From a virus, in IMG/VR virus record IMGVR_UViG_3300023184_002398, positions 1-25,638 of that record: 25,638 nt of DNA; one strand, written 5' to 3'. Position numbers and translations under genes: made by a program. The notes under the pieces are model-generated. The model saw only the letters and a list, made by a program, of their open reading frames with translations, had not been told where the DNA came from and did no database searches. Numbering within the stretch: the stretch's first letter is position 1; each line of letters starts with the position of its first letter. Positions 2,646-23,128 of the stretch are shown here, one piece after another.

Positions 2646-5303
2646 ATGAGTTATATTGACGCACTGTTCGATCGAACAAAAGATCGTATCTATATCGTAG
2701 AGAGAGTTAATGGCCAGAGAGAATATCAAGAATTTCCAGCTAATTATGTTTTCTACTATGATGATCCTCGCGGTAAGTTTCGCACTATTTACGATACGCC
2801 TGTTAATAGATTTAGCACTAGGATAGGCAAAGAGTTCCACAAAGAACTCAAAATAAATTCAGGTAAGCGTATATGGGAAAGTGACATCAACCCCGTGTTC
2901 CGTTGCTTAGAAGAAAACTATCTGGGCAAACCCGCACCAAAACTACAAACAGCATTTTTCGACATTGAGGTTGACTTTGATCCAGTCAGAGGATTCTCAA
3001 AACCAGAAGATCCATTTAATCCCATAACTGCGGTATCGGTTTATCTTGATTGGTTAGACAAACTGGTAACAATGGTGGTGCCACCTAAGAGCATGAGTTG
3101 GGAAACCGCTGAAGAGATATGTCGGCAGTATGACAACTGTTTCCTAATGGAACGCGAAGAGGATCTGCTCAAAACATTCTTGGATTTGATTGATGATGCA
3201 GATATATTAAGTGGTTGGAACTCAGAAGGTTTCGATATTCCTTACATGATACAGCGTACCAATCGTGTGCTCAGCAAAGATGACACACGCAGATTCTGCT
3301 TATGGGGGCAATTCCCTAAACAGCGTGAGTTCGAACGCTTTGGTGCGGCTAATATGACCTTTGACTTAATTGGTCGAGTCCATTTAGACTACATGCAACT
3401 GTATCGCAAATACACATACGAAGAACGTCATAGTTACAGCTTAGATGCTATCGCTGAGTATGAATTAGATGAACGTAAAACACAGTATGAAGGTACTTTA
3501 GATCAGTTATACAATCAAGATTTCCCTAAGTTTATTGACTACAATCGCCAAGATGCTATGCTGGTAGCTAAGTTAGACAAGAAACTGCGCTTTTTAGATC
3601 TGGCGAATGAGTTGGCGCATGACAACACTGTGCTACTACAGACGACCATGGGTGCTGTGGCTGTTACCGAGCAGGCTATCATCAATGAAGCACATCAATT
3701 AGGTATGGTTGTGCCAAATCGCAATCGTGATGAACAGTTTGACACACAGGCCGCAGGTGCGTATGTGGCATATCCTAAACAGGGCATGCATGACTATGTA
3801 GGTGCTATCGATATCAACTCACTATATCCCTCAGCGATTCGTGCGCTGAACATGGGTCCAGAAACTATCGTAGGACAACTGCGTCCTGTGATGACTGAGC
3901 ACTATATCAAAGAGAAAATGACAGCAGGTAGTAGTTTTGCTGATGCGTGGGAAAATATCTTTGGTAGCTTAGAATATACCGCCGTGATGAATATGGAAGC
4001 GGGCACAGAAATTACCATCGATTGGGAAAATGGTACCAGTGATGTAATCAGTGCCGCAGACTGTTGGCGATTGATATTTGACAGCAACAAGCCTTGGATC
4101 TTGAGTGCTAACGGTACTATCTTTAACAATGAACGCAAAGGTGTGGTGCCGGGACTATTAGAGCGTTGGTATGCTGAACGTAAAGAAATGCAAGCCAAGA
4201 AAAAAGATGCCACTACAGACGAAGACAAAGCGTTCTGGGACAAGCGTCAGTTGGTCAAGAAGATTAACTTGAACAGCTTGTATGGTGCTATCCTTAATCC
4301 AGGTTGTCGCTTTTTTGATAAGCGTATCGGACAATCAACTACATTAACTGGACGTGTGATCGCACGCCATATGGATGCTTATATCAATGAATGTATCATG
4401 GGCAAGTATGATCACGTAGGTGAAGCGATAATCTATGGTGATACAGACTCATGTTATTTCAGTGTTTGGCCTGCTATCCGTGCAGATGTAGAAGCTGGTA
4501 AGATGGAGTGGAATAAAGATATGGCTGTGGCCCTTTATGATAATATCGCAGATCAGGTCAACGAAAGTTTCCCTGCATTCTGTGAGCGTGCTTTCCATAC
4601 TCCACGTCGACAAGGCGAGCTGATCAAAGGTGGACGTGAACTTGTAGCACTCAAAGGCCTGTTTATCAAGAAGAAACGGTATGCTGTATTGATCTATGAT
4701 TTAGAAGGCAAGCGATTAGATTCAGTGGGTCACCCAGGTAAAGTAAAAGCCATGGGCTTAGACTTAAAACGTTCAGACACCCCAAAGGTCATCCAAGACT
4801 TCCTAAGCGATATTCTACTCGATGTCTTAACAGGTGCAGAGCGTGAAGCAATTATTGAAAAAGTTCGTGAATTTAAGTTGGCATTCACTGATCGTCCCGC
4901 TTGGGAAAAAGGCACACCTAAACGTGTAAACAACTTGACCAAATACACTAAAGAAGAAGAACGCTTAGGTAAAGCCAACATGCCCGGGCATGTGCGTGCG
5001 GCAATGAATTGGAACAACTTAAAACGTATGATGGGTGATCAATATAGCATGAATATCGTAGATGGTATGAAAACTATCGTATGCAAGCTCAAAGACAATC
5101 CTCTGGGCTATAGTTCAGTAGGCTATCCTACAGATGAAACACATATTCCACAATGGTTTAAAGAATTGCCTTTTGATGATGCTGAGATGGAGACCACTAT
5201 CGTAGACCAAAAGGTAGAAAACCTATTAGGTGTGTTGGATTGGCGAATCGCAGAAAACACACAGATTGCCACAACATTTGATAATCTATTTACGTTTGAA
5301 TAA
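2646..5303 (+). CDS. 43: Family B DNA polymerase, T4 gp43-like
   Basis: Replicative DNA polymerase with 3'-5' proofreading. At 885 residues it is close to T4 gp43 (898). The exonuclease domain shows FFDIEVDF (Exo I, about 99-106), a NSEGFDIPY Exo II region, and an Exo III-like YNRQDAMLV. Polymerase motif A is DINSLYPSAIRALNMGPE, motif B is KKINLNSLYGAI, and motif C is YGDTDS; KKKRYA follows. The C-terminus ends TTFDNLFTFE, resembling the short hydrophobic tail by which gp43 binds the gp45 clamp, and a clamp gene lies 1 kb downstream. ATG with an AAGGA ribosome binding site and a preceding hairpin suggests translational autoregulation as in T4. All catalytic aspartates appear intact. It is the best anchor for calling this a T4-like phage. 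Confidence 0.97.
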   Translation: MSYIDALFDRTKDRIYIVERVNGQREYQEFPANYVFYYDDPRGKFRTIYDTPVNRFSTRIGKEFHKELKINSGKRIWESDINPVFRCLEENYLGKPAPKLQTAFFDIEVDFDPVRGFSKPEDPFNPITAVSVYLDWLDKLVTMVVPPKSMSWETAEEICRQYDNCFLMEREEDLLKTFLDLIDDADILSGWNSEGFDIPYMIQRTNRVLSKDDTRRFCLWGQFPKQREFERFGAANMTFDLIGRVHLDYMQLYRKYTYEERHSYSLDAIAEYELDERKTQYEGTLDQLYNQDFPKFIDYNRQDAMLVAKLDKKLRFLDLANELAHDNTVLLQTTMGAVAVTEQAIINEAHQLGMVVPNRNRDEQFDTQAAGAYVAYPKQGMHDYVGAIDINSLYPSAIRALNMGPETIVGQLRPVMTEHYIKEKMTAGSSFADAWENIFGSLEYTAVMNMEAGTEITIDWENGTSDVISAADCWRLIFDSNKPWILSANGTIFNNERKGVVPGLLERWYAERKEMQAKKKDATTDEDKAFWDKRQLVKKINLNSLYGAILNPGCRFFDKRIGQSTTLTGRVIARHMDAYINECIMGKYDHVGEAIIYGDTDSCYFSVWPAIRADVEAGKMEWNKDMAVALYDNIADQVNESFPAFCERAFHTPRRQGELIKGGRELVALKGLFIKKKRYAVLIYDLEGKRLDSVGHPGKVKAMGLDLKRSDTPKVIQDFLSDILLDVLTGAEREAIIEKVREFKLAFTDRPAWEKGTPKRVNNLTKYTKEEERLGKANMPGHVRAAMNWNNLKRMMGDQYSMNIVDGMKTIVCKLKDNPLGYSSVGYPTDETHIPQWFKELPFDDAEMETTIVDQKVENLLGVLDWRIAENTQIATTFDNLFTFE

Positions 5304-5305
5304 TC

Positions 5306-6247
5306 GTGTTAGTAAGCCAGTTAATAAAATTTAGAGATGATGTTAAACATCGAATTGCGCTGTTAGAACAAGATCCGGGCCTTGACATAAGCATCAATTT
5401 AATGGACTCAATTCTTCAAGAAAATGCTGATGTTGATAAATTTTCTGCACATACTAAAATAGAAAACATCATTGCAGGATTTAGTTCTTTGCGTGATCAA
5501 TTAAACACGATTAAAAAACAAGCTCCAGATATCATTGATGACATAAACGAAGCGATTGATCAACTGGCTGCACAGTTACTAACTAAACCAGATGATGAAC
5601 CATTTAAATACTATTTTAAAACTGAATTCACATTAGATCAAGAACTGGAGATAGCGATCCGGGCCAATATCCACAAGTATTCGAACTGGTATTTTCCTGC
5701 ACTGCAACTTGGTTGTAGATCAGACGCAAAAAAATTTACTTCAGAACTAATTGCCAATGATCCATTGTATATCTGTGATTATGATATGGATTACATCTCT
5801 GATGTTACCTCACAATTCAACACAGTATATAATAATCGCATAAGGAAATATGTATTATCGGGGCACGACCTGCTGGTCTTACCACAAAATCAATTTGGAT
5901 TTATCTTGTGTTGGTCTTTTTTTAATTATGTTGGAATAGGATCAGTAGAAAAATATTTAGAAAATCTATTAAAGTTATTACGTCCGGGCGGAACGCTAAT
6001 GTTTAGTTATAATAACGGTGACATATTTGATTGCTGTAAGCTAACAGAATCTGGGGGCATGAGTTTTATTTCTAATAGGAAAATCTTGGAAATTTGTAAT
6101 AAAATCGGATATGTAGAGCCTACAAGTTATGATATGATTAACTCTGACCCCGATGTGAAACACATCAGCTGGATTGAAATCAAAAAACCAGGAGAATTAC
6201 TAACAACAAAACGATCTCAAGCAAGGGGGAAAATATTAACCAAATAA
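5306..6247 (+). CDS. Class I SAM-dependent methyltransferase-like protein
   Basis: This 313-residue protein starts at a GTG two bases after the polymerase stop. The first 95 residues are helical and look coiled-coil-like (LLEQDPGLDISINLMDSILQ onward). The rest resembles a class I Rossmann methyltransferase: LQLGCRSD at the motif I position, YICDYDMDY for the acidic strand-2 residue, FILCWSFFNYVGIGSVEKYLENLLKLLRPGG for motif IV to post-IV, and TLMFSYNNGD after it. Motif I lacks the usual GxGxG, so SAM binding may be weak or altered. The substrate is unknown; neither DNA-methylase (DPPY-type) nor rRNA-methylase signatures are visible. It lies between polymerase and clamp genes. Confidence 0.6.
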   Translation: MLVSQLIKFRDDVKHRIALLEQDPGLDISINLMDSILQENADVDKFSAHTKIENIIAGFSSLRDQLNTIKKQAPDIIDDINEAIDQLAAQLLTKPDDEPFKYYFKTEFTLDQELEIAIRANIHKYSNWYFPALQLGCRSDAKKFTSELIANDPLYICDYDMDYISDVTSQFNTVYNNRIRKYVLSGHDLLVLPQNQFGFILCWSFFNYVGIGSVEKYLENLLKLLRPGGTLMFSYNNGDIFDCCKLTESGGMSFISNRKILEICNKIGYVEPTSYDMINSDPDVKHISWIEIKKPGELLTTKRSQARGKILTK

Positions 6248-6261
6248 ATTTATCAAACCTC

Positions 6262-6290
6262 TTGCACGATCTAAATAAATCATATACACT
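6262..6290 (+). promoter_or_regulatory. Promoter region before the sliding clamp gene, with an embedded CTAAATAA box
   Basis: TTGCAC (6262-6267) and TACACT (6285-6290) are 17 bp apart. CTAAATAA at 6271-6278 in the spacer resembles the T4 late promoter TATAAATA. A strong AAAGGAGA ribosome binding site precedes the ATG at 6312. Confidence 0.5.
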
Positions 6291-6311
6291 ATATTATCAA
6301 AGGAGAAACAC

Positions 6312-7043
6312 ATGAGAGACCATCTATTAGACATCGTTAAAAACACTTATGGCTTAGGCATTATTGACTTAGTTAAAGTATCAGGCACAGCAGAAGAAAC
6401 AACCATCGAAGCATTAGCTGAAGATCGATCAGTTATTGTGCAGGCCAAACTTAATGGCCCAGTTGCAGAATTTGTTGGTATATTCGGTATGCCAAACTTA
6501 GGTAAACTAAGCACTATCTTAGGTATTCCAGAATACAAAGAAAACGCTAAGATCACATTAACCAAACAAGATCGAAACGGAGCTCAAGTTCCTGTAGGAT
6601 TGCATTTTGAAAATGCCGCAGGCGACTTTAAAAACGACTATCGTTTTATGAGCCAAGAGATTGTTAATGACAAACTAAAAACTGTAAAGATGCGTCCAGT
6701 AACTTGGAACGTAGAATTTGAACCAACTGTGGCCAATATTCAAAGACTCAAATTCCAAGCGTCAGCTAATAGTGAAGAAAACAACTTTACTGCTAAAACT
6801 AACAATGGTAACTTAGAGCTATCATTTGGTGATCATTCAAGCCATGCAGGTAATTTCGTATTCCAAGCAGGTGTTACAGGTTCACTAACTAAAGGTTGGA
6901 GTTGGCCAGTTAAAGCAGTTATCAGCATTTTAGACTTACCAGGTGATAAGAAGTTCAGCATCAGCGATGAAGGTGCGGCACAGATCACTGTTAATTCAGG
7001 TCTTGCAACTTACAACTATATCTTACCAGCACAGAGCAAGTAA
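6312..7043 (+). CDS. 45: Sliding clamp, T4 gp45-like
   Basis: The DNA polymerase processivity clamp, which in T4 also activates late transcription. At 243 residues it is near the 228 of T4 gp45. Clamp-like features are the opening helix (LLDIVKNTYGLGIIDLVKVSG), the LNGPVAEFVGIFGMPNLGKLSTIL segment typical of T4-type clamps, and alternating strands to the end, including the central NVEFEPTVANIQRLK. It has its own promoter and ribosome binding site, which suits a highly expressed protein. The stop overlaps the next start (TAATG). The clamp loader genes (44/62) are not in the window. Confidence 0.88.
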   Translation: MRDHLLDIVKNTYGLGIIDLVKVSGTAEETTIEALAEDRSVIVQAKLNGPVAEFVGIFGMPNLGKLSTILGIPEYKENAKITLTKQDRNGAQVPVGLHFENAAGDFKNDYRFMSQEIVNDKLKTVKMRPVTWNVEFEPTVANIQRLKFQASANSEENNFTAKTNNGNLELSFGDHSSHAGNFVFQAGVTGSLTKGWSWPVKAVISILDLPGDKKFSISDEGAAQITVNSGLATYNYILPAQSK

Positions 7044-7633
7044 TGGAATTAGGCCGTTGGGCGCACCTTGGACATAGGTTAGGTGAATGTTGGGTAGACG
7101 ATATTAATAATATCAGCTACATACATATTCCTAAGAATGCCAGTAGTTTTGTCAAAGGTGTGCTGATAGGATCAGGCGGTTTTTGGCGACATAGTGAAAC
7201 CTTAATAAACAGCAACGAAAATCTGATCATGTTACGTGATCCTATTGAACGTTGGTGTAGCGGTATCACACAGTATCTATTTAACAGCAAACAAGATCTT
7301 TCTGTAGATGAAATATTTGAAAAGATAACTTTCGACGATCACACGGACCTACAGACATATTTTTTGCAAGGAGTAGACCTTAACAATGCTACATTTATGT
7401 TAGTAGGTGATAACCTTAAGGCAAACTTAAACAATTGGATTTATAATCGGCCTTATAGAACCAATGTTGATATAGCAATACAATATAACAGCAGTAATGA
7501 AGATAGTCGGCGAACAACCAAAGAATACTATGTTAACTTACTTGAACAAAACCCAGAACTTGTGTTAAAATTACAGCAACATTTCGAAGAAGACTATAAA
7601 TTAATTGGTAGCGTAAAATTTTATGAATCGTGA
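7043..7633 (+). CDS. Sulfotransferase family protein
   Basis: The 196-residue product shows both PAPS-binding signatures of Golgi-type (family 2) sulfotransferases: a 5'-phosphosulfate loop YIHIPKNASSFVK (about 26-38) and a 3'-phosphate motif MLRDPIERWCSGITQYL (about 63-79). It is shorter than most cellular family members and has no transmembrane anchor, so it would act in the host cytoplasm. The acceptor is unknown; a virion glycan or a small molecule are both possible. It starts inside the clamp stop codon and overlaps dpdA by 11 bases. Confidence 0.75.
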   Translation: MELGRWAHLGHRLGECWVDDINNISYIHIPKNASSFVKGVLIGSGGFWRHSETLINSNENLIMLRDPIERWCSGITQYLFNSKQDLSVDEIFEKITFDDHTDLQTYFLQGVDLNNATFMLVGDNLKANLNNWIYNRPYRTNVDIAIQYNSSNEDSRRTTKEYYVNLLEQNPELVLKLQQHFEEDYKLIGSVKFYES

Positions 7634-9161
7634 TAACCTAACCCAAAAACAAAAAGATTATGCTGTTTTTCTACCAGCACTAAGTGGTTTCTATGCTACT
7701 TACGTAGGTAAGCAAAGGCATGACCCAAACTATGTTGATCCCCAACGTATACCTGCAGACTTTGACTCTGGTATCGAAGGGCTTAACTGGCTCAATCCAG
7801 ATGCAGCATACTTTCCATATCAATGGGCCTTGTATTCAGCAGGACACGCAGAACTTGATGTAAACAAACATAGTCCCAAAGAAGATATGGTGCGTAATAG
7901 AGATCGTTCACGCAGTTTCATCTTAGGTGATAGTGGTGGATTCCAGATTGGTAAGGGTGTTTGGGAAGGTGATTGGAAAGATCCCAACTGTCCTAAAGCA
8001 CAGAAGAAACGTGAATTGGTATTGTCGTGGATGGATGCTTACATGGATCGCGGCATGATCCTTGATATTCCAGCCTGGGTAGCCCGTTCGCCAGCAGGTC
8101 GCAAGGCCACAGGCATTACCAGTTATATTGAAGCAGTGCAGGGCACTTACATCAACAATGATTATTTTATGAAGAACAGGACTGGTGCATGTAAGTTCCT
8201 AAATGTATTGCAGGGTGAGAATCACGCAGACGCAGATGATTGGTATGATCGCATGAAGAAATACTGTGATCCACGTCAATATGCGCAACCATTTGAAGGT
8301 TGGGCCATGGGCGGACAGAATATGTGTGATGTTCATTTAGTTCTGCGCCGTCTGGTTGAACTACGTCACGATGGTCTATTAGAAAAAGGACGGCATGATT
8401 GGATGCACTTCTTGGGCACCAGCAAACTTGAATGGGCTTGTTTATTAACAGACATCCAACGTGCGGTGCGTAAGTATCACAACGAAAACTTTACTATTAG
8501 TTTTGACTGTGCTAGTCCATTCTTAGCGTCAGCTAACGGGCAGATCTACATACAGACTGAAATCACTGATCGTGAGAAATGGGTATATCGTATGGTGCCC
8601 AGTGTTGACGACAAGAAATATGCCACAGACCAACGCCGCTTCCGCGATGCTGTTCTACAGGATAAGATATTTGAAAACTTTACTGATAGTCCAGTTAGTG
8701 CTCGTTGCACTGTCAAAGATATCTGTATCTATAAACCCGGCGACCTAAATAAGATAGGCAAAGAAGGTAAGACATCGTGGGATAGTTTCAGCTATGCTAT
8801 CCAGATGGGGCACAATGTATGGAGCCATATCTCAGCAGTGCAGGAAGCTAACCGACAATATGATCAAGGCGTTACACCTCGTATGTTAGTGCAGGAAACA
8901 TTTGATCGCACTTATTTTAAACATGTAGTAGAAGCCATATTCGCTACCAGTAACAAAGGTGAAGCATTGGCAGTGATTGAAGACTATAACAAGTTCTGGA
9001 TGAGCATCATTGGCACACGCGGTGCTACAGGTAAGAAAACCGTAAATGCTTCAACCATGTTTAATAATTTATTTGAAAGCGAAGAATCAGAAGAACATCA
9101 CATAGATGACAGTGGGTTTGACGAATCTAACTTAGATGCATTAGAAAATAGTGAACAATAG
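7623..9161 (+). CDS. dpdA: DpdA-like DNA guanine transglycosylase (TGT superfamily)
   Basis: Related to queuine tRNA-ribosyltransferase. Phage DpdA proteins exchange guanine in DNA for a 7-deazaguanine. Key TGT positions are visible: ILGDSGGFQ (D103, equivalent to the base-recognising aspartate of DSGGFQ in TGT), EGWAMGGQ (about 225-232, like GGLAVGE), and SFDCASPF (D295, the equivalent of the nucleophile in FDCVLPTR). The C-terminal IQMGHNVWSHISAVQEANRQY resembles the helix holding the histidine zinc ligand, but the CxCxxC ligands of tRNA enzymes are reduced to C362 and C368. At 512 residues it is longer than bacterial TGT (about 380). No queuosine tRNA context is present, but folE, queE and queD are, so DNA is the likely substrate. 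The acidic C-terminal tail is unusual. The DpdA subfamily is not assigned. Confidence 0.85.
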   Translation: MNRDNLTQKQKDYAVFLPALSGFYATYVGKQRHDPNYVDPQRIPADFDSGIEGLNWLNPDAAYFPYQWALYSAGHAELDVNKHSPKEDMVRNRDRSRSFILGDSGGFQIGKGVWEGDWKDPNCPKAQKKRELVLSWMDAYMDRGMILDIPAWVARSPAGRKATGITSYIEAVQGTYINNDYFMKNRTGACKFLNVLQGENHADADDWYDRMKKYCDPRQYAQPFEGWAMGGQNMCDVHLVLRRLVELRHDGLLEKGRHDWMHFLGTSKLEWACLLTDIQRAVRKYHNENFTISFDCASPFLASANGQIYIQTEITDREKWVYRMVPSVDDKKYATDQRRFRDAVLQDKIFENFTDSPVSARCTVKDICIYKPGDLNKIGKEGKTSWDSFSYAIQMGHNVWSHISAVQEANRQYDQGVTPRMLVQETFDRTYFKHVVEAIFATSNKGEALAVIEDYNKFWMSIIGTRGATGKKTVNASTMFNNLFESEESEEHHIDDSGFDESNLDALENSEQ

Positions 9162-10230
9162 AAAAAATTTTTGTTCTGCGCCGTGGTCCAGTTTATGCTT
9201 GGAACAAACGAATCAGACTAAAATTTGTTGTATTAGTAAAGATTATATCACAACAACAGATTTAAATTCTATTCCTACTAACAAAAAGTTTATTGAAATT
9301 AGGCAGGCATTTGTTGAAGATCTACAGCATAGTAACTGTGATAATTGTTGGAAAGTCGAAGCAACTGATGCTTATCAACCCAGTATGCGATCTACTTATG
9401 GCCCTGATGATTTTTATAATAATGTATACCGTACTGATGATTTCAAACTTGAACTATTAGATGTGAGATGGAGTAACTACTGTAATTTATCTTGCGTATA
9501 TTGTGGTTCCGGCTATAGCAGCAAATGGGATGATCTTTTAGGTAATAAACAAAAATTTAAAATTTTTCCAGATATCACTAAAGACATGCTTAAGAATTTA
9601 AAAGTATTAATGTTAGCTGGAGGCGAACCTCTTTTGATCAAAGAAAATCATTCTTTACTATCTAATCTATTAGAAACAAATCCCAACTGTCGGATACAAA
9701 TTACCACAAACTTAACAAAATTAAATACTCCAAACTATGAATTATTAAAAAAATTCTCTAACGTCACTGTGGTTGTTAGCGTTGAAGCTGTTAGAGAAAA
9801 ATATGAATACATAAGATTTGGAGCCAATTGGGATGAATTCTTTTCTAATTTTAAACAGGTGACAAAAGATTTTCCAACAGTTCAAACTAATATGGTTTTT
9901 TTTCCTCTTAGCATGACAGTTATAGATCAAGCCATTGATTTATTGACTCAATTTATTCCAGAGGAAAATGTTTTTATAGTTCACCAACACGGTGATAAGC
10001 TGCCAAACTTTAATTCAGTTAGTAAATATGTGATTAAAAAATATACTGATCAGCTGACTAATTTTGCCCTAACAAGGCGTAGTCAAACACTTAGAGATAA
10101 AATCCTGGCTAATATTGAATCATTACACTCATCAGCTGATATAACTAAATTAGATTATTATGATAACTTTGATAAATTAACAAAACAAAATCATAAGTTA
10201 ATATTTAAAGAATTATATGGAGGAGAATGA
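9151..10230 (+). CDS. Radical SAM protein with N-terminal twitch/SPASM-like cysteines (first of two)
   Basis: A 359-residue radical SAM enzyme starting at a GTG inside the dpdA 3' end. The [4Fe-4S]-SAM motif is CNLSCVYC (C111, C115, C118) and the GGEP strand is LMLAGGEPLL (157-160). Upstream of the core is a set of cysteines in SPASM/twitch order: FCSAPW (C8), C16, KICC (C26, C27) and CDNCW (C63, C66), likely holding an auxiliary Fe-S cluster. This N-terminal placement matches the family I know as N-terminal-twitch radical SAM proteins, whose reactions are mostly unknown. The substrate cannot be read from sequence. The AT-rich codon choice is stronger than in dpdA, hinting at separate acquisition. 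Confidence 0.85.
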   Translation: MNNRKNFCSAPWSSLCLEQTNQTKICCISKDYITTTDLNSIPTNKKFIEIRQAFVEDLQHSNCDNCWKVEATDAYQPSMRSTYGPDDFYNNVYRTDDFKLELLDVRWSNYCNLSCVYCGSGYSSKWDDLLGNKQKFKIFPDITKDMLKNLKVLMLAGGEPLLIKENHSLLSNLLETNPNCRIQITTNLTKLNTPNYELLKKFSNVTVVVSVEAVREKYEYIRFGANWDEFFSNFKQVTKDFPTVQTNMVFFPLSMTVIDQAIDLLTQFIPEENVFIVHQHGDKLPNFNSVSKYVIKKYTDQLTNFALTRRSQTLRDKILANIESLHSSADITKLDYYDNFDKLTKQNHKLIFKELYGGE

Positions 10231-10231
10231 T

Positions 10232-10459
10232 ATGTCTATGGGCAAACAAATTTTTTATCATAATCTAAAAAATGGTAATGAATCTGAGTTACAGAGCTAT
10301 TTAGAAATTCTTAGAGAACGACATAGAGATTTAGATAAACGTATCGCAGAAGGATATAGTCATTATTTGACCGACAAAGGTATGCAAAAAATGAAATTTG
10401 AAAAAGCCGCCATTAAAAGAGAAATTGTAGAAGTTGAAGAGAAATTAAAAAAACTATAA
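10232..10459 (+). CDS. DUF465/YdcH-like small helical protein
   Basis: The ATG at 10232 is chosen because GGAGGAG (10219-10225) sits six bases before it; an in-frame ATG at 10217 lies on top of that site. The 75-residue product contains LRERHRDLDKRIAEGY followed by MKFEKAAIKREIVEVEEKL, the two-helix hairpin pattern of DUF465 (LxxxHxxLDxxI ... LKKxKLxLKDEI). No cysteines and no Gly/Ser-rich core peptide are present. It lies between two radical SAM genes and overlaps the second by one base (TAATG). The role is unknown, perhaps as a protein partner. Confidence 0.7.
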   Translation: MSMGKQIFYHNLKNGNESELQSYLEILRERHRDLDKRIAEGYSHYLTDKGMQKMKFEKAAIKREIVEVEEKLKKL

Positions 10460-11655
10460 TGGCTTTACCAAAAAACTTTTGTGTTGCACCGTTCGTGCAA
10501 TTAACCACACACCCATCCGGATCATTCGGACCTTGTCCTTATCTCGGTGGAACACAGTGGAAAGCTGTAAAACCTCTTATTTTCTCTCACCAATGGGCGT
10601 CTGCTGAGCTTGATAATCTACGTATGCAGTTTATTAACGATGAGCAACCTGAAATATGTGAAAGATGTTGGCATGAGGAACGTAACGGCAAACGTAGTCT
10701 ACGTAAACGTTTTTGGGATCATGAAACACAAACCACTGATTTTTTTAAGGAAATATCTAAGGAGGTCGTAGACCAGATCGAATATAATATTAGTGAAGGT
10801 GAGTTAGGGTTTCCTACTATTCTTACTATTAAAAATGGTAATGTTTGTAATGCCAAATGCCGAACTTGCCATCCTGGGGACAGCAGTCGGTGGGCTGAAG
10901 ATACGACCAAATTGGTTGACTTAACTGGAAAAACATATTATAATATCCATAATAGTGAAATAAATTGGTCAGATGAACAATTAGCTGAAATCCTACATTT
11001 ATCAATTGGACTTAAACGATTGGAATTATTTGGTGGTGAACCATTATACAATAAAAAGGTTATTTGGTTACTCAATCAATTGATTGCAAAGGGATTAGCT
11101 AAAAATATTACCCTATATATTAATACGAACGGTAGTGTTAACATAGTTGAAAAAGTGCCATCGATTAAAGAATTTGCGCGAGTAGAAATCGGAGTATCAA
11201 TCGACGGAGTAGCGGAACATTTTAATTATATACGACACGGATTGGAATATAGCACAGTTATTGAAAATGTGAAAAAATGGCAACATTATTTTAACGGGCA
11301 CGGAACAGAATATTGGATTGACAGTATCAGCACTGTCGACATACTAAATGTTTACTACTTGCCTGAACTAAGACGAGCGGTAGTAGAAGAATTAGAGTTA
11401 CTTCCACCGTTTTGGAATTTACTAATTGACCCGGCATATCTGTTTGTTAAAAATATGCCCGAATATGTTAAATCAAAAGTAATTGAAAAACTCAGTAATG
11501 CTGGTAATTTTGATGAACTGATTAATACTATAAAACAACCTGCCGACCATGAAGAATGGTATAAATTTTTAGAAATAACTGGCGCATTAGATACTATAAG
11601 AGAAGAAAATTTTGCAATGACTTTTCCAGAATTTTATAAAATCATCAAGGATTAA
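10459..11655 (+). CDS. Radical SAM protein with N-terminal twitch/SPASM-like cysteines (second of two)
   Basis: A 398-residue paralogue-like radical SAM enzyme. The cluster motif is CNAKCRTC (C130, C134, C137), the GGEP motif is LFGGEPLY (192-195), and the strand/loop LYINTNGS follows as in other family members. N-terminal auxiliary cysteines are FCVAPF (C8), C26 in FGPCPYLGG and CERCW (C67, C70). The overall order equals that of the upstream radical SAM gene, but the sequences are clearly different enough for separate substrates. IGVSIDGVAEHFNYIRHG is the typical SPASM-family strand after the core. Chemistry and target are unknown. It starts by TAATG overlap with the DUF465-like gene. Confidence 0.87.
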   Translation: MALPKNFCVAPFVQLTTHPSGSFGPCPYLGGTQWKAVKPLIFSHQWASAELDNLRMQFINDEQPEICERCWHEERNGKRSLRKRFWDHETQTTDFFKEISKEVVDQIEYNISEGELGFPTILTIKNGNVCNAKCRTCHPGDSSRWAEDTTKLVDLTGKTYYNIHNSEINWSDEQLAEILHLSIGLKRLELFGGEPLYNKKVIWLLNQLIAKGLAKNITLYINTNGSVNIVEKVPSIKEFARVEIGVSIDGVAEHFNYIRHGLEYSTVIENVKKWQHYFNGHGTEYWIDSISTVDILNVYYLPELRRAVVEELELLPPFWNLLIDPAYLFVKNMPEYVKSKVIEKLSNAGNFDELINTIKQPADHEEWYKFLEITGALDTIREENFAMTFPEFYKIIKD

Positions 11656-15222: not shown

Positions 15223-15918
15223 ATGAGTGATAAAACAATCAGCGAACGGATTCTCGAACGCATCAAAGCAAGTAATACCAGATATTGGGCTGGAGATAAT
15301 ATCTCAGACTTTATATTGGATAGTGAACGTGCTGAATTAGTAGATGAATTAACTGAGAAATTTGAAGGTGTGTTAGATAGTCTACTTATCGATCGCTACA
15401 CAGATCCAAATAGCCAAGGCACAGCACGTCGGTTGGCTAAAATGTATCTATATGAGATCATGGCAGGACGCTATGATCCAGCACCAGATGCAACAGCTTT
15501 TCCAAATGATTCGGAGGACCGTTATGAAGGTATGCTCGTGGTTAGAAGTGAGCTTCGCAGTATGTGTAGTCACCATCATCAGCCTGTCGCTGGTGTTGCC
15601 TATATTGGGATTATCGCCGCACAAAAACTTATTGGGCTTAGTAAGTATACTCGTATTGCTCAATGGTGTGCTCGTCGTGGCACACTACAAGAAGAACTTG
15701 CTAACGACATCGCCCGAGAAATAATGAAGGCAACTGGCAGTGAGAACGTAGCAGTTTACATACAGGCCACACATGGTTGCTGTGAAAACCGTGGTATTAT
15801 GGCACATTCAAGTCTTACACAGACTACTGTGCTTAAAGGTGCTTTTAAAGATGACGGCAATACTAAAAAAGAGTTCTTTGACAATATTAAATTACAACAG
15901 GAGTTTGCACCAAGATGA
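15223..15918 (+). CDS. folE: GTP cyclohydrolase I
   Basis: Converts GTP to 7,8-dihydroneopterin triphosphate, the first step of folate and 7-deazaguanine synthesis. The 231-residue sequence has the zinc and active-site motifs: MCSHHHQP (C115, H118), GLSKYTRIAQWCARRGTLQEELANDIA matching GLSKxxRixxxxxRRxQxQExLxxxIA, and ATHGCCENRGIM (H184, C186) matching AxHxCMxxRG. The N-terminal ~95 residues hold the usual helices. It is full length and appears active. Here its job is presumably to feed QueD and QueE for DNA modification. It opens a new transcript at its own promoter and overlaps the next gene by 4 bases. Confidence 0.95.
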   Translation: MSDKTISERILERIKASNTRYWAGDNISDFILDSERAELVDELTEKFEGVLDSLLIDRYTDPNSQGTARRLAKMYLYEIMAGRYDPAPDATAFPNDSEDRYEGMLVVRSELRSMCSHHHQPVAGVAYIGIIAAQKLIGLSKYTRIAQWCARRGTLQEELANDIAREIMKATGSENVAVYIQATHGCCENRGIMAHSSLTQTTVLKGAFKDDGNTKKEFFDNIKLQQEFAPR

Positions 15919-17455: not shown

Positions 17456-17515
17456 ATGCTTATGAAACAACAACATATCTTGAAAACCAATATAACAGAG
17501 CATATCAATGAGTAA
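17456..17515 (+). CDS. Possible leaderless leader peptide upstream of queE
   Basis: A 19-codon frame (MLMKQQHILKTNITEHINE) starts at the predicted transcription start of the queE promoter, 7 bases after the -10 box, and stops 8 bases into queE in another frame. There is no Shine-Dalgarno for it and hardly one for queE, so termination-reinitiation coupling is conceivable. A second short frame from ATG 17452 ends at the ATGA of queE. Either could be chance in an AT-rich leader. Confidence 0.25.
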   Translation: MLMKQQHILKTNITEHINE

Positions 17516-18362
17516 ATTAAAAGTCAGTGAAATATTCTATTCAGCACAAGGTGAAGGACGCTTTATTGGTGTGCCTTCAGTCTTTTTAAGAACATTTGGC
17601 TGTAACTTTACCTGCGGTGGGTTTGGTATGCCAGATCGCACACAGATGAGCACAGAACGTGAGTTCATCGATCCAGCAAAATATCGTATCTATGAAGAAT
17701 TGCCTTTAGTTAATACGGGCTGTGACAGTTATGCATCATGGGATCCAAGATTTAAGAACTTTAGTCCACTATTAACAATCGATGCTGTGGTTAAGCGTAT
17801 GATAGATCTCGTTCCAAGTAACAGTTGGATCATGCCCAATGGTAATGACACTCATTTGGTAATCACTGGTGGTGAACCGTTATTGGGTTGGCAACGTAGC
17901 TATCCAGAACTGTTAGATCATGAAGATATGTTTAATTTATTAAACTTAACATTTGAAACCAATGGCACCCAAGAACTACATGAGGACTTTGTCAAATATT
18001 TAAAATTGTGGAATCGTGGTAGCCGAGAAGTTACATTTAGCGTTAGTGCTAAACTAAGTGCATCAGGCGAGGCATGGACTGATGCTGTCAAACCTGACAT
18101 TGTCAAGAGTTATGAAAAGGTTGGAACAACTTATCTTAAATTTGTAGTCGAGAAGCCTGGAGACTTTGATGAAGTGGATCAAGCCGTAGCAGAGTATCGT
18201 AAAGCCAAATTCAAAGGTGTTGTTTATATCATGCCAGTAGGTGGTGTGGTCAAGGTCTACGATGGCAACAAATTCAATGTAGCAGATGAAGCTATGCGTC
18301 GTGGTTATTATTACAGCCCAAGATTACATGTTGATCTTTGGGGTAACAGTTGGGGGAAATAA
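17508..18362 (+). CDS. queE: QueE-like 7-carboxy-7-deazaguanine synthase (radical SAM)
   Basis: Converts 6-carboxytetrahydropterin to CDG. The start VSEIFYSAQGEGRFIGVPSVFLRTFGCN is the QueE signature. The cluster cysteines are C32 and C36 (CNFTC); the usual third cysteine two residues later is a phenylalanine. A 35-residue insertion follows, ending NTGCDSYASWD, so C72 in GCDS probably takes the place of the WCDT cysteine, giving C-x3-C-x35-C. The GGEP motif is VITGGEPLLGW (121-124), and the strand FETNGTQEL and KYVVEKP-like LKFVVEKPGDFDEV follow as in QueE. At 284 residues it is longer than usual (about 220). metK starts directly after its stop. It should still be a CDG synthase, but the cluster site needs testing. 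Confidence 0.88.
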   Translation: MSKLKVSEIFYSAQGEGRFIGVPSVFLRTFGCNFTCGGFGMPDRTQMSTEREFIDPAKYRIYEELPLVNTGCDSYASWDPRFKNFSPLLTIDAVVKRMIDLVPSNSWIMPNGNDTHLVITGGEPLLGWQRSYPELLDHEDMFNLLNLTFETNGTQELHEDFVKYLKLWNRGSREVTFSVSAKLSASGEAWTDAVKPDIVKSYEKVGTTYLKFVVEKPGDFDEVDQAVAEYRKAKFKGVVYIMPVGGVVKVYDGNKFNVADEAMRRGYYYSPRLHVDLWGNSWGK

Positions 18363-19484
18363 TTGAGTTATCTATTTACAAGTGAAAGTGTTAGTGAAGG
18401 GCATCCAGATAAAGTAGCAGACGCTATCAGCGATGCTGTATTAGATCTTATGATGCGTGAGCAGAATCCTGCTTACCGTTGTGCTTGCGAAACATTAGTA
18501 ACAACTAATCAAGTGATCATAGCCGGTGAATACAAAGGTATCTATAACCATTTGGAAGTCGAAAATGCTGTTCGCCGCGTCATACGTGACATAGGCTACG
18601 AGCAAGATGGATTCAATTGGTCCACCGTGGATATTAAAAACTATATGCATGGTCAATCTGCTGACATCGCCTTAGGCACAGACTCTTTTGGTGCCGGTGA
18701 TCAAGGTCTGATGTTTGGGTATGCTATTAATGAAACCCCAGATCTGATGCCCAGTGCCATATATTATAGCCATAAAATTGTTAAGCATCTTGCAGAAATA
18801 CGTAAAGGAGTAACAGGTATCAGTCCTGTAACGTGGTTAGGTCCAGATGCTAAATCACAAGTGACAATGGAATATCACGATAACGGGTCAGTAAAACGTA
18901 TCGCTAAGATAGTTTGTTCAACACAGCATTCAGCAGAATATGCCATTGAAGATGTTCGTGAAGCAGTTAAAAATATTATCAAAGGCATTTTACCTGGAGA
19001 ACTATTAGATGACGATACTGAGTATCTTATCAATCCTACTGGTCGTTTTGTTATTGGTGGTCCCGATGGTGATACTGGGCTTACTGGTCGTAAAATTATT
19101 GTTGATACTTATGGCGGCTATAGCCCTCATGGTGGTGGTGCTTTTAGTGGCAAAGATCCTACTAAAGTTGATCGTAGTGCTGCTTATATGGCTAGGTATC
19201 TAGCTAAGAATATCGTGGCCACACAAGGCGCACATAAAGCCACAGTTCAACTAAGCTATGCTATTGGGGTTAAAGAACCAACCAGTGTTTGGGTAAAAAC
19301 TGATCGAGGTGTAGACTACGATAGGATCACAACTGATTGGATTCGCAGAAATGTTGATCTAACACCACAGGGTATCATAAATAAGTTTGACTTGTTCCGT
19401 CCTATATACAGCGAAACTGTCAACTATGGACACTTTGGTAAAGCAAATTTACCTTGGGAATCTGTAGATTTATTCAAGGAATAA
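18363..19484 (+). CDS. metK: S-adenosylmethionine synthetase
   Basis: Makes S-adenosylmethionine from methionine and ATP. The 373-residue protein is essentially full length. It opens MSYLFTSESVSEGHPDKVADAISDAVLD (ATP/Mg site, H14 and D16), has signature 1 GAGDQGLMFGYA (110-121) and signature 2 GGGAFSGKDPTKVDRSAAY (258-276), and INPTGRFVIGGPDGDTGLTGRKIIVDTYGG before it. The start is a TTG immediately after the queE stop, with no spacing, so translation is probably coupled. A phage copy is notable; next to queE, in a genome with two more radical SAM genes and a methyltransferase-like gene, it likely boosts the SAM supply during infection. Confidence 0.97.
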   Translation: MSYLFTSESVSEGHPDKVADAISDAVLDLMMREQNPAYRCACETLVTTNQVIIAGEYKGIYNHLEVENAVRRVIRDIGYEQDGFNWSTVDIKNYMHGQSADIALGTDSFGAGDQGLMFGYAINETPDLMPSAIYYSHKIVKHLAEIRKGVTGISPVTWLGPDAKSQVTMEYHDNGSVKRIAKIVCSTQHSAEYAIEDVREAVKNIIKGILPGELLDDDTEYLINPTGRFVIGGPDGDTGLTGRKIIVDTYGGYSPHGGGAFSGKDPTKVDRSAAYMARYLAKNIVATQGAHKATVQLSYAIGVKEPTSVWVKTDRGVDYDRITTDWIRRNVDLTPQGIINKFDLFRPIYSETVNYGHFGKANLPWESVDLFKE

Positions 19485-21943: not shown

Positions 21944-22196
21944 AGAATTAGAAACCTTAGCAGAACAAGCAGGATTACCCGTAACGGATAATCTTGAACA
22001 CTTCTATCGTTTGGTCGGTAGTCGCTGTGCTGACATGTGTGGTAGTCAAGCTGATCAAAAGAATATCCGCCGTTACTTTGGTTTAGATTATTACAACGGT
22101 CCTACGCACTATCAAGACACACGTCATCAAGAAACACAGTATGACTGGAGCAAACATTACATTGAGGGAAAGAATGGAAAAGAAACTTTGGGATAG
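21936..22196 (+). CDS. Hypothetical protein (86 aa)
   Basis: The ATG at 21936 overlaps the end of the 36-aa membrane protein gene; an ATG at 21906 would add ten residues but lies deep inside that gene. The protein begins MNKELETLAEQAGLPVTDNL, is helical for its first half, and contains SRCADMCGSQADQKNIRRYFGL and a His/Tyr-rich C-terminus (YNGPTHYQDTRHQETQYDW). The cysteine and histidine content could mean metal binding. It overlaps the QueF-like gene by 23 bases. No family recognised. Confidence 0.6.
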   Translation: MNKELETLAEQAGLPVTDNLEHFYRLVGSRCADMCGSQADQKNIRRYFGLDYYNGPTHYQDTRHQETQYDWSKHYIEGKNGKETLG

Positions 22197-22578
22197 TATC
22201 GACAGCTCAATACTTAAATCATTACCTAATGCCGCTAAAGGCTATGAACAGCGTATCAGCATACCAGAATTTACATTCTTAGGTGGTGCTAATCAACCAG
22301 ACTTTGGTGATGTGACTATTTGGTTCTATGGCAAGGATAAGACTATTGAATTAAAAAGTCTCAAGCAGTATATCTTTCAATACAGAGATACAAGACTAAG
22401 CTATGAACGAGCATTAGATGTCATGTATAAGGATCTAATGAAAGTATATGAACCAGATCGCATCCGTATAGAAATTGAATATCGCCCCAGAGGTGGTATA
22501 AGTAGTAGAATGACAGTAGACAGTGATTGGGGCCATTTAGGTGGTTCTGATACATTATGGCAACATCACAAGGACTGA
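22174..22578 (+). CDS. QueF-like T-fold protein lacking the catalytic cysteine
   Basis: The ATG at 22174 follows GAGGGAAAG and is preferred over 22141. The 134-residue protein aligns with unimodular QueF (preQ0 nitrile reductase). PEFTFLGGANQPDFGDVTIWF stands where QueF has EFTxLCPxTGQPDFAxI; the aspartate (D43) of QPDF is kept but the thioimide-forming cysteine is a glycine and one residue is missing. ELKSLKQYIFQYRDTRLSYE (60-79) matches the QueF motif ExKSxKxYLxSFRxxxxxxE, and PDRIRIEIEYRPRGGIS (94-110) matches the C-terminal FxPRGGI end. It cannot do normal nitrile reduction. It probably binds a 7-deazaguanine, and a decarboxylase of CDG (the DpdL role) is a plausible function. queD follows immediately. 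Confidence 0.8.
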   Translation: MEKKLWDSIDSSILKSLPNAAKGYEQRISIPEFTFLGGANQPDFGDVTIWFYGKDKTIELKSLKQYIFQYRDTRLSYERALDVMYKDLMKVYEPDRIRIEIEYRPRGGISSRMTVDSDWGHLGGSDTLWQHHKD

Positions 22579-22579
22579 T

Positions 22580-23128
22580 ATGAGTTGGATTATTGATAAA
22601 ACGTTTGAATTTTGTTATGGACACAGAGTTTGGACACAGAAACTGAATGGTGAATATGCGGCAGACTTGAAGTGTGCTTGCCGTCACCTACATGGACATG
22701 AAGGCAAGATGCAGGTATATCTAAAGAGCTTAGATGGCCGTTTAGATCAGACTGGTATGGTAACAGACTTCCGTCATTTGGAATGGTTGAAGAAATGGAT
22801 TAATGAATATATCGATCATCAGTTTATCATTGATAGGAATGATCCTTTGTATAGCAAAATCATCGGCGAACGTGGACTTGTGCCTGTGATGGTTCCTAAT
22901 ACCATGCATGGGGCTGGGTGGCATTTAGATTTGAGTGACTTAGATCCTAATACACCAGAGTATGAATACTATGAAGGGTTCATGATCGTAGATTTTGTGC
23001 CAACAAGTGAACGCTTGTCACATTGGATGGCTGATCTGGTAGATGCGAAAATGAAACCACTTAATGTTACAGTTGACCACATTGATTGGTGGGAGACTCC
23101 TAAGAGCCGTAGCGTATATTACAGATGA
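22580..23128 (+). CDS. queD: QueD-like 6-carboxy-5,6,7,8-tetrahydropterin synthase
   Basis: Converts dihydroneopterin triphosphate to CPH4, the QueE substrate. The ATG at 22580 with AAGGAC upstream is chosen over a frame extension inside the QueF-like gene. The zinc histidines are H15 (FCYGHRVW), H38 and H40 (CRHLHGHEGKM). C34 takes the catalytic cysteine place (C-x3-HGH as in QueD). GMVTDFRHLEWLK matches GMVxDFxxLK, IDHQFIID matches LDHxxLN, PTSERLSHWM matches PTxENLAxxI and DWWETPKS holds the pterin-binding glutamate (E172). At 182 residues it is longer than most QueD (about 120), with an insertion of some 40 residues between the DH motif and the PTS motif. ATGA overlap with the next gene. 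Confidence 0.9.
   Translation: MSWIIDKTFEFCYGHRVWTQKLNGEYAADLKCACRHLHGHEGKMQVYLKSLDGRLDQTGMVTDFRHLEWLKKWINEYIDHQFIIDRNDPLYSKIIGERGLVPVMVPNTMHGAGWHLDLSDLDPNTPEYEYYEGFMIVDFVPTSERLSHWMADLVDAKMKPLNVTVDHIDWWETPKSRSVYYR

Follow-up and report, generated by a model that had tools for sequence, protein, structure and literature searches.

A QueF-like family of phages and bacteria that lacks the catalytic cysteine and lies among methionine, SAM and folate genes

A cysteine-free QueF homologue in a phage genome fragment

The window described here is the whole of a 25,638-nucleotide stretch of viral DNA (IMG/VR record IMGVR_UViG_3300023184_002398, positions 1 to 25,638). On its plus strand, an open reading frame at 22174..22578 encodes a QueF-like protein of 134 amino acids, as judged from the frame itself, a match to PF14489 and alignment with its family. 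The frame starts with an ATG at 22174, ends with a TGA at 22576-22578 and follows a probable Shine-Dalgarno sequence, GAGG, found by direct reading at 22164..22167 on the same strand, 7 nt before the ATG. An alternative in-frame ATG lies at 22141; the alignable part of the family begins at 22174. A Pfam scan of the protein found QueF as its sole domain (PF14489, E 5.9e-18, 65.3 bits against a cut-off of 27.3), with no homology to PF02219 or a TIM-barrel MetF. The protein also matches the QueF of B. subtilis (4f8b/4fgc) at E values of 3-5e-13.

In canonical QueF, Cys55 and the nitrile form a thioimide, which is reduced by NADPH, and the resulting imine is reduced in a second step; NADPH is held by the QueF motif, and the base is anchored by Glu97 (PMC5372742). 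An earlier note on this DNA had proposed a QueF homologue without the catalytic cysteine, and the alignment bears this out. The segment SLCPKTGQPDF of B. subtilis QueF corresponds to FLG-GANQPDF in the window, such that Cys55 is lost along with one residue of length. The altered site, GGANQPDF, is encoded at 22282..22305 (plus strand) and retains the equivalent of Asp62 as D43 (22300-22302). The protein has no cysteine in any of its 134 positions, so none from elsewhere can replace Cys55. Nitrile reduction by the known mechanism is thus impossible, as the note had argued, given that the cysteine of the thioimide is gone; the fold and the base pocket are retained.

The other features that the note had listed as kept, namely the QPDF aspartate, the ELKSLK motif and the RPRGGIS end, are all seen in the window protein, and their core residues are invariant across the 164 family members discussed below. 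By the family alignment, on the plus strand, the QueF motif reads ELKSLKQY (22348..22371), with its Glu, both Lys and the Tyr invariant in 164/164. The segment SYER (22399..22410) keeps the Glu97 equivalent as E78 of the window protein, but carries replacements of Phe95 by Ser, His96 by Tyr and Asp98 by Arg that are fixed in the family. The PRGGI motif (22486..22500) is invariant, and a C-terminal DSDW motif (22519..22530) is specific to the family and not present in canonical QueF.

Structure prediction agrees with the assignment. The AF2 model of the window protein has a pLDDT of 80 and finds its best structural match in QueF 4f8b (Z 16.1 over 120 residues), so that the predicted fold is the tunnelling fold. 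Comparison with profiles was less uniform; although the QueF family profile PF14489 is matched, the window protein scores 79.3 bits against the NCBIfam equivalog for preQ1 synthase, TIGR03139, below its cut-off of 86.9. Scores to TIGR03139 across the family range from 77 to 87 bits, compared with 166 for the QueF of phage Dp-1, and one copy (L117) reaches 87.2. Because these scores straddle the cut-off, annotation as preQ(1) synthase is likely in many genomes.

A single family under purifying selection

The cysteine-less QueF paralogues are referred to here as Q*. A first scan of IMG/VR gave 68 loci, nearly all with 75-98% identity across most of the protein, and a profile scan contributed more distant loci. 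A scan of bacterial genomes gave 176 stretches, of which 80 were retained, with 51-69% identity. Residue statistics were taken over 164 phage and bacterial sequences. Cys55 is absent from all of them, and Asp62, Glu97, Glu78, Lys80, Lys83, Tyr85, Arg90 and PRGGI are invariant. The substitutions S53F, P56G, S79L, F95S, H96Y and D98R are fixed. Of the canonical motif E(S/L)K(S/A)hK(L/Y)(Y/F/W), the family keeps E-L-K-(S/A)-h-K-x-Y, with mostly Q or E at the L/Y position. Q* preserves the core of the NADPH motif together with Glu97 and the acid; what the nitrile step requires is gone, as are the pocket residues Phe95 and His96.

The ratio dN/dS between phage copies is 0.03-0.06, which indicates strong purifying selection. 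Together with the absence of the cysteine in 164/164, this rules out sequencing error, chance or a pseudogene as the source of the loss. Q* is monophyletic with respect to the cysteine-containing QueFs of phages and bacteria (support 98/97), on a tree with long branches whose bootstrap is not fully settled. Known phage QueFs were considered as members and rejected, since those read (phiSM, ValKK3, Pan1, R26L, HVTV-1, HCTV-1, Dp-1 and others) retain the cysteine; the seven named here also have an annotated QueC near QueF. The search for a close relative among named phages found none, the best being 34.5% identical. Q* is an unrecognised family of phages and bacteria.

Gene neighbourhoods, riboswitches and gene content of the carriers

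In the window, Q* adjoins a gene for a QueD or 6-carboxytetrahydropterin synthase homologue (22580..23128, by Pfam and NCBIfam), and context genes encode a FolE or GTP cyclohydrolase I (15223..15918) and a QueE-like radical SAM protein (17508..18362), all on the plus strand. A further plus-strand gene, at 7623..9161, is a candidate for a DpdA-like transglycosylase by its TGT-type DSGGFQ motif alone. Its product is possibly a divergent DpdA; it has no match in Pfam or among PDB sequences, and its model has a pLDDT of 43.5. This protein, of 512 amino acids, has relatives in Pseudomonas jumbo phages such as PA5oct that carry no annotation and match it at 34% over its full length. The region 9151-11655 encodes two successive radical-SAM proteins with a small ORF between them, and relatives of these occur in several Q* phages.

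A set of FolE, QueE, QueD and DpdA-like genes alongside Q* would suit a CDG decarboxylase, in which case the 7-deazaguanine produced would be inserted into phage DNA by DpdA. The earlier note had proposed such a switch of reaction, with reference to DpdL, a proposed phage CDG decarboxylase that may be related to QueF. The literature searched contained no usable report on a phage DpdL or on any link between QueF and methionine. The retention of the base-anchoring Glu97 and of the acid Asp62 is consistent with a decarboxylase, as is the recurrence of FolE, QueD and QueE without QueC in related phages.

The 7-deazaguanine context of Q* is, however, local only. QueD lies within 2 ORFs of Q* in just 12 of 67 phage loci, so the adjacency that had been read as a functional clue is not conserved. 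Among 20 phage records, roughly seven have Q* together with FolE, QueD, QueE and DpdA; QueD, FolE and DpdA were undetected in the other 13, many of which are fragments, and there the QueE profile gave only weak radical-SAM matches. A phage record of 338 kb (G016), read piecewise, showed no DSGGFQ and no match to FolE, QueD, QueE or DpdA; it does carry SAM synthetase and a thymidylate-synthase motif in addition to Q*. Where the window-type phages have QueD beside Q*, the loci L028-L038 have SAM synthetase, and any QueD on the same contig lies at a distance of about 3.5 kb. The invariant core of the NADPH motif also counts against a decarboxylase, which would not need it. The earlier note's remark that QueC is not visible holds for the window, but carries little weight given that the record is a 25.6-kb fragment and that a relative of 210 kb (G013) has a weak QueC-like protein far off, separated by about 190 kb from the que cluster. 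The latter (1072-1689 of L082) is a divergent PP-loop protein with 27.3 bits to PF06508.

The association that is conserved is with methionine, SAM and folate genes. The window has a gene for S-adenosylmethionine synthetase, a recurrent partner of Q*, at 18363..19484 (plus strand), and this gene is directly beside Q* in L028-L038, L041-L044, L054, L067 and L205. Of 67 phage loci, 34 have SAH hydrolase within 2 ORFs of Q*, and 16 have SAM synthetase. The neighbours of bacterial Q* include MetH halves (20-22 of 73 loci), ThyX (9) and MetF (3), and 33/73 have at least one one-carbon or methionine gene. As a control, 844 more distant ORFs contained one such match. Neighbour identities were confirmed by Pfam, and the loci are not mutually independent.

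The arrangement varies with lineage. In Bacteroidota, Q* sits between split halves of metH, and in most cases its ORF overlaps that of metH_N; in Gammaproteobacteria it is divergent from a full-length metH, and in Deltaproteobacteria it is 3' of thyX. A SAR11-like contig has the order CGS/sulfhydrylase-Q*-metE, and the operon at L184 has the order sulfhydrylase-Q*-homoserine dehydrogenase. Many copies in Bacteroidota (Marinilabiliaceae, Chitinophaga) are solitary. On the contig L114, labelled Pelagibacterales, the region 2953-8079 encodes a CGS/sulfhydrylase, Q*, MetE and a second Cys/Met PLP enzyme. At the phage locus L203, a class II aldolase-family protein (422-1084) is directly 5' of Q* and resembles, by eye, the methylthioribulose-phosphate dehydratase of methionine salvage. 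In a 382-kb phage record, the surroundings of Q* include many tRNA genes in an array as well as GOLLD and skipping-rope RNAs (L201, 4116-16319).

SAM riboswitches accompany several of these operons. Of 15 scanned metH_N-Q*-metH_C loci, all but L135 have a SAM-I riboswitch immediately 5' of metH_N (14 of 15), and another precedes the L184 operon. A SAM-V riboswitch lies ahead of the metE-containing operon of L114, at 2883-2948. The Rfam scan found no SAM riboswitch at gathering score at orphan bacterial copies or at the scanned phage loci. Membership of Q* in a methionine/SAM regulon is well supported, and these neighbours and riboswitches are a further argument against a CDG decarboxylase.

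The gene content of 20 bacterial carriers bears on any role in 7-deazaguanine synthesis. Seven have QueC and a separate, longer, cysteine-containing canonical QueF; ten, all of them Bacteroidota, lack both QueC and any second QueF; and in three Deltaproteobacteria, QueC is present and Q* is the only QueF-type protein. Given the ten carriers without QueC and the seven with a separate canonical QueF, the occurrence of Q* does not track preQ0 synthesis. The three Deltaproteobacteria, and the naming of the family as preQ(1) synthase by similarity on scores that surround the TIGR03139 cut-off, would fit a preQ0 reductase or other 7-deazaguanine enzyme that works without a thioimide. Such an enzyme is very improbable, however, as half of the carriers have no known source of preQ0, seven have canonical QueF as well, and two residues of the preQ0 pocket, Phe95 and His96, have been substituted in 164/164. 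Homologues of QueE were found in 20/20 carriers and of QueD in 10/10 of those without QueC, and a role of Q* linked to CDG therefore stays as a minority reading. Since the genes for canonical QueF and QueC coexist with Q* in some carriers, in addition to the phage records in which no que or DpdA gene was detected and the methionine, SAM and folate neighbours, the proposed switch to CDG decarboxylation is not upheld and is considered highly unlikely. The QueE homologue of the QueC-less Bacteroidota is mostly encoded directly after folD, often in the order lepA-folD-queE (L235-L244).

Folate enzymes were surveyed in the same 20 carriers. MetF is present in 16, and is within the Q* operon at L117, L122 and L148. 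PF02219 was not found in four (G022, G027, Pleionea sediminis G030 and G032), three of which are possibly incomplete MAGs; in G022, G027 and G030, Q* is beside metH. A simple replacement of MetF by Q* is thus unsupported. PF00186 dihydrofolate reductase (DHFR) is also present in 16 and absent from four, including all three tested thyX-Q* genomes, and simple replacement of DHFR is likewise unsupported.

MetH, MetE and ThyX all release unsubstituted tetrahydrofolate. The occurrence of Q* beside each of these enzymes could reflect another NADPH-dependent folate or pterin reductase, either a dihydrofolate reductase or an enzyme that repairs oxidised tetrahydrofolate or 5-methyl-dihydrofolate. The missing DHFR in the thyX-Q* genomes (3/3) would fit, as would the retention of the NADPH-motif core and Glu97. 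This is nonetheless unlikely, given that most of the carriers have DHFR and that SAM synthetase, SAH hydrolase and SAM riboswitches are better suited to methyl supply than to the reduction of dihydrofolate.

A proposed role in one-carbon metabolism and comparison with known systems

The fold, residue pattern, selection, single clade, neighbourhoods and SAM riboswitches described above are results of the analysis, and their best explanation is that Q* works in the methionine/SAM/folate one-carbon cycle rather than in 7-deazaguanine synthesis. Given metH, metE, thyX, SAHH, SAM synthetase and SAM riboswitches around Q*, reduction of methylene-tetrahydrofolate (methylene-THF) best fits both the chemistry and the context. 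We infer, with a confidence somewhat short of even, that Q* is an NADPH-dependent, flavin-free 5,10-methylene-THF reductase, analogous to MetF, where the substrate, the use of the cofactor and the reaction are all part of the inference. Counting against it are chiefly the presence of MetF in 16 of the 20 carriers and of QueD and QueE homologues in the ten without QueC, and also the many solitary Bacteroidota copies, at which no SAM riboswitch was detected; in its favour, Q* adjoins metH in three of the four carriers in which MetF was not found.

The proposed mechanism builds on that of QueF. Both preQ0 and pterins present a 2-amino-4-oxo-pyrimidine edge, and Glu97 would hold the substrate by this edge. 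The second half-reaction of QueF transfers hydride to an exocyclic imine at C7, which would match N5 of the pterin in that both are beside the ring carbonyl; by structural reasoning, the N5-methylene of the pterin would sit where the C7 substituent of 7-deazaguanine does. Ring opening of methylene-THF to the N5 iminium would use a proton from Asp62, and the iminium would then accept hydride from NADPH bound at the QueF motif. QueF needs its cysteine for attack on the nitrile; in the absence of that residue the nitrile step would drop out and the reduction of the iminium would be what is left. Flavin-free methylene-THF reductases are known: in the mycobacterial Mfr, protonation gives an N5 iminium, to which hydride is transferred directly (PMC11094777). 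In the phage, methyl groups from Q* would enter a cycle that the phage's own SAM synthetase enhances, as SAH hydrolase would in related phages.

Q* may instead be a non-catalytic ring of tunnelling-fold subunits that binds a folate or purine and regulates or chaperones enzymes of the methionine cycle. The loss of the catalytic cysteine and His96 and the tight operon coupling with the metH halves are compatible with such a protein, but the invariance of Asp62, Glu97 and the Glu, Lys, Lys and Tyr of the NADPH motif in 164/164 goes beyond the usual need of ligand binding, and the partner enzymes differ between lineages. A regulatory function is thus rather unlikely.

Framed as a class, the methylene-THF reductase reading is put forward still more tentatively: Q* may be a new, structurally unrelated class of these enzymes, a QueF minus the nitrile (thioimide) half-reaction that retains the imine-reducing half, widespread in Bacteroidota and, as part of a methyl-cycle cassette, in environmental phages, and misnamed preQ1 synthase. 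If so, a family held in databases as preQ1 synthase is misplaced in queuosine synthesis and serves methionine, SAM and folate metabolism. An alternative T-fold reductase would fill gaps in metF-less genomes and would be a clear case of a change in enzyme function through loss of a catalytic nucleophile. Phages with Q*, SAM synthetase and SAH hydrolase would then steer the methyl supply of the host during infection.

Among known systems, Q* is closest to unimodular QueF of the B. subtilis type (4f8b/4fgc/5udg), with which it shares about 30% identity, the tunnelling fold of the AF2 model (Z 16.1), the QueF motif core, the QPDF acid, Glu97 and PRGGI. It differs from unimodular QueF in the loss of Cys55 chemistry, in the changes of Phe95 to Ser, His96 to Tyr, Asp98 to Arg and Ser79 to Leu, in the new DSDW motif and in its methionine-cycle gene context. 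The QueF-Like archaeosine synthase (5jyx, 5k0p) is also a single tunnelling-fold domain, with Z 14.1 to the Q* model, but forms a covalent thioimide, according to the title of 5jyx, whereas Q* has no cysteine and lies beside methionine-cycle genes. Likeness to a DpdL-type enzyme would lie in the phage context with FolE, QueD, QueE and DpdA, whereas the family as a whole is mainly tied to methionine genes. With MetF, which uses FAD, and the flavin-free mycobacterial Mfr, Q* would share its proposed reaction, and it shares a place beside metH or metE and in SAM-riboswitch operons. Unlike a substitute for MetF, Q* co-occurs with MetF in most carriers. MetF and Mfr are TIM-barrel proteins to which the sequence of Q* is unrelated, and Q* would thus be an independent solution to the same reaction.
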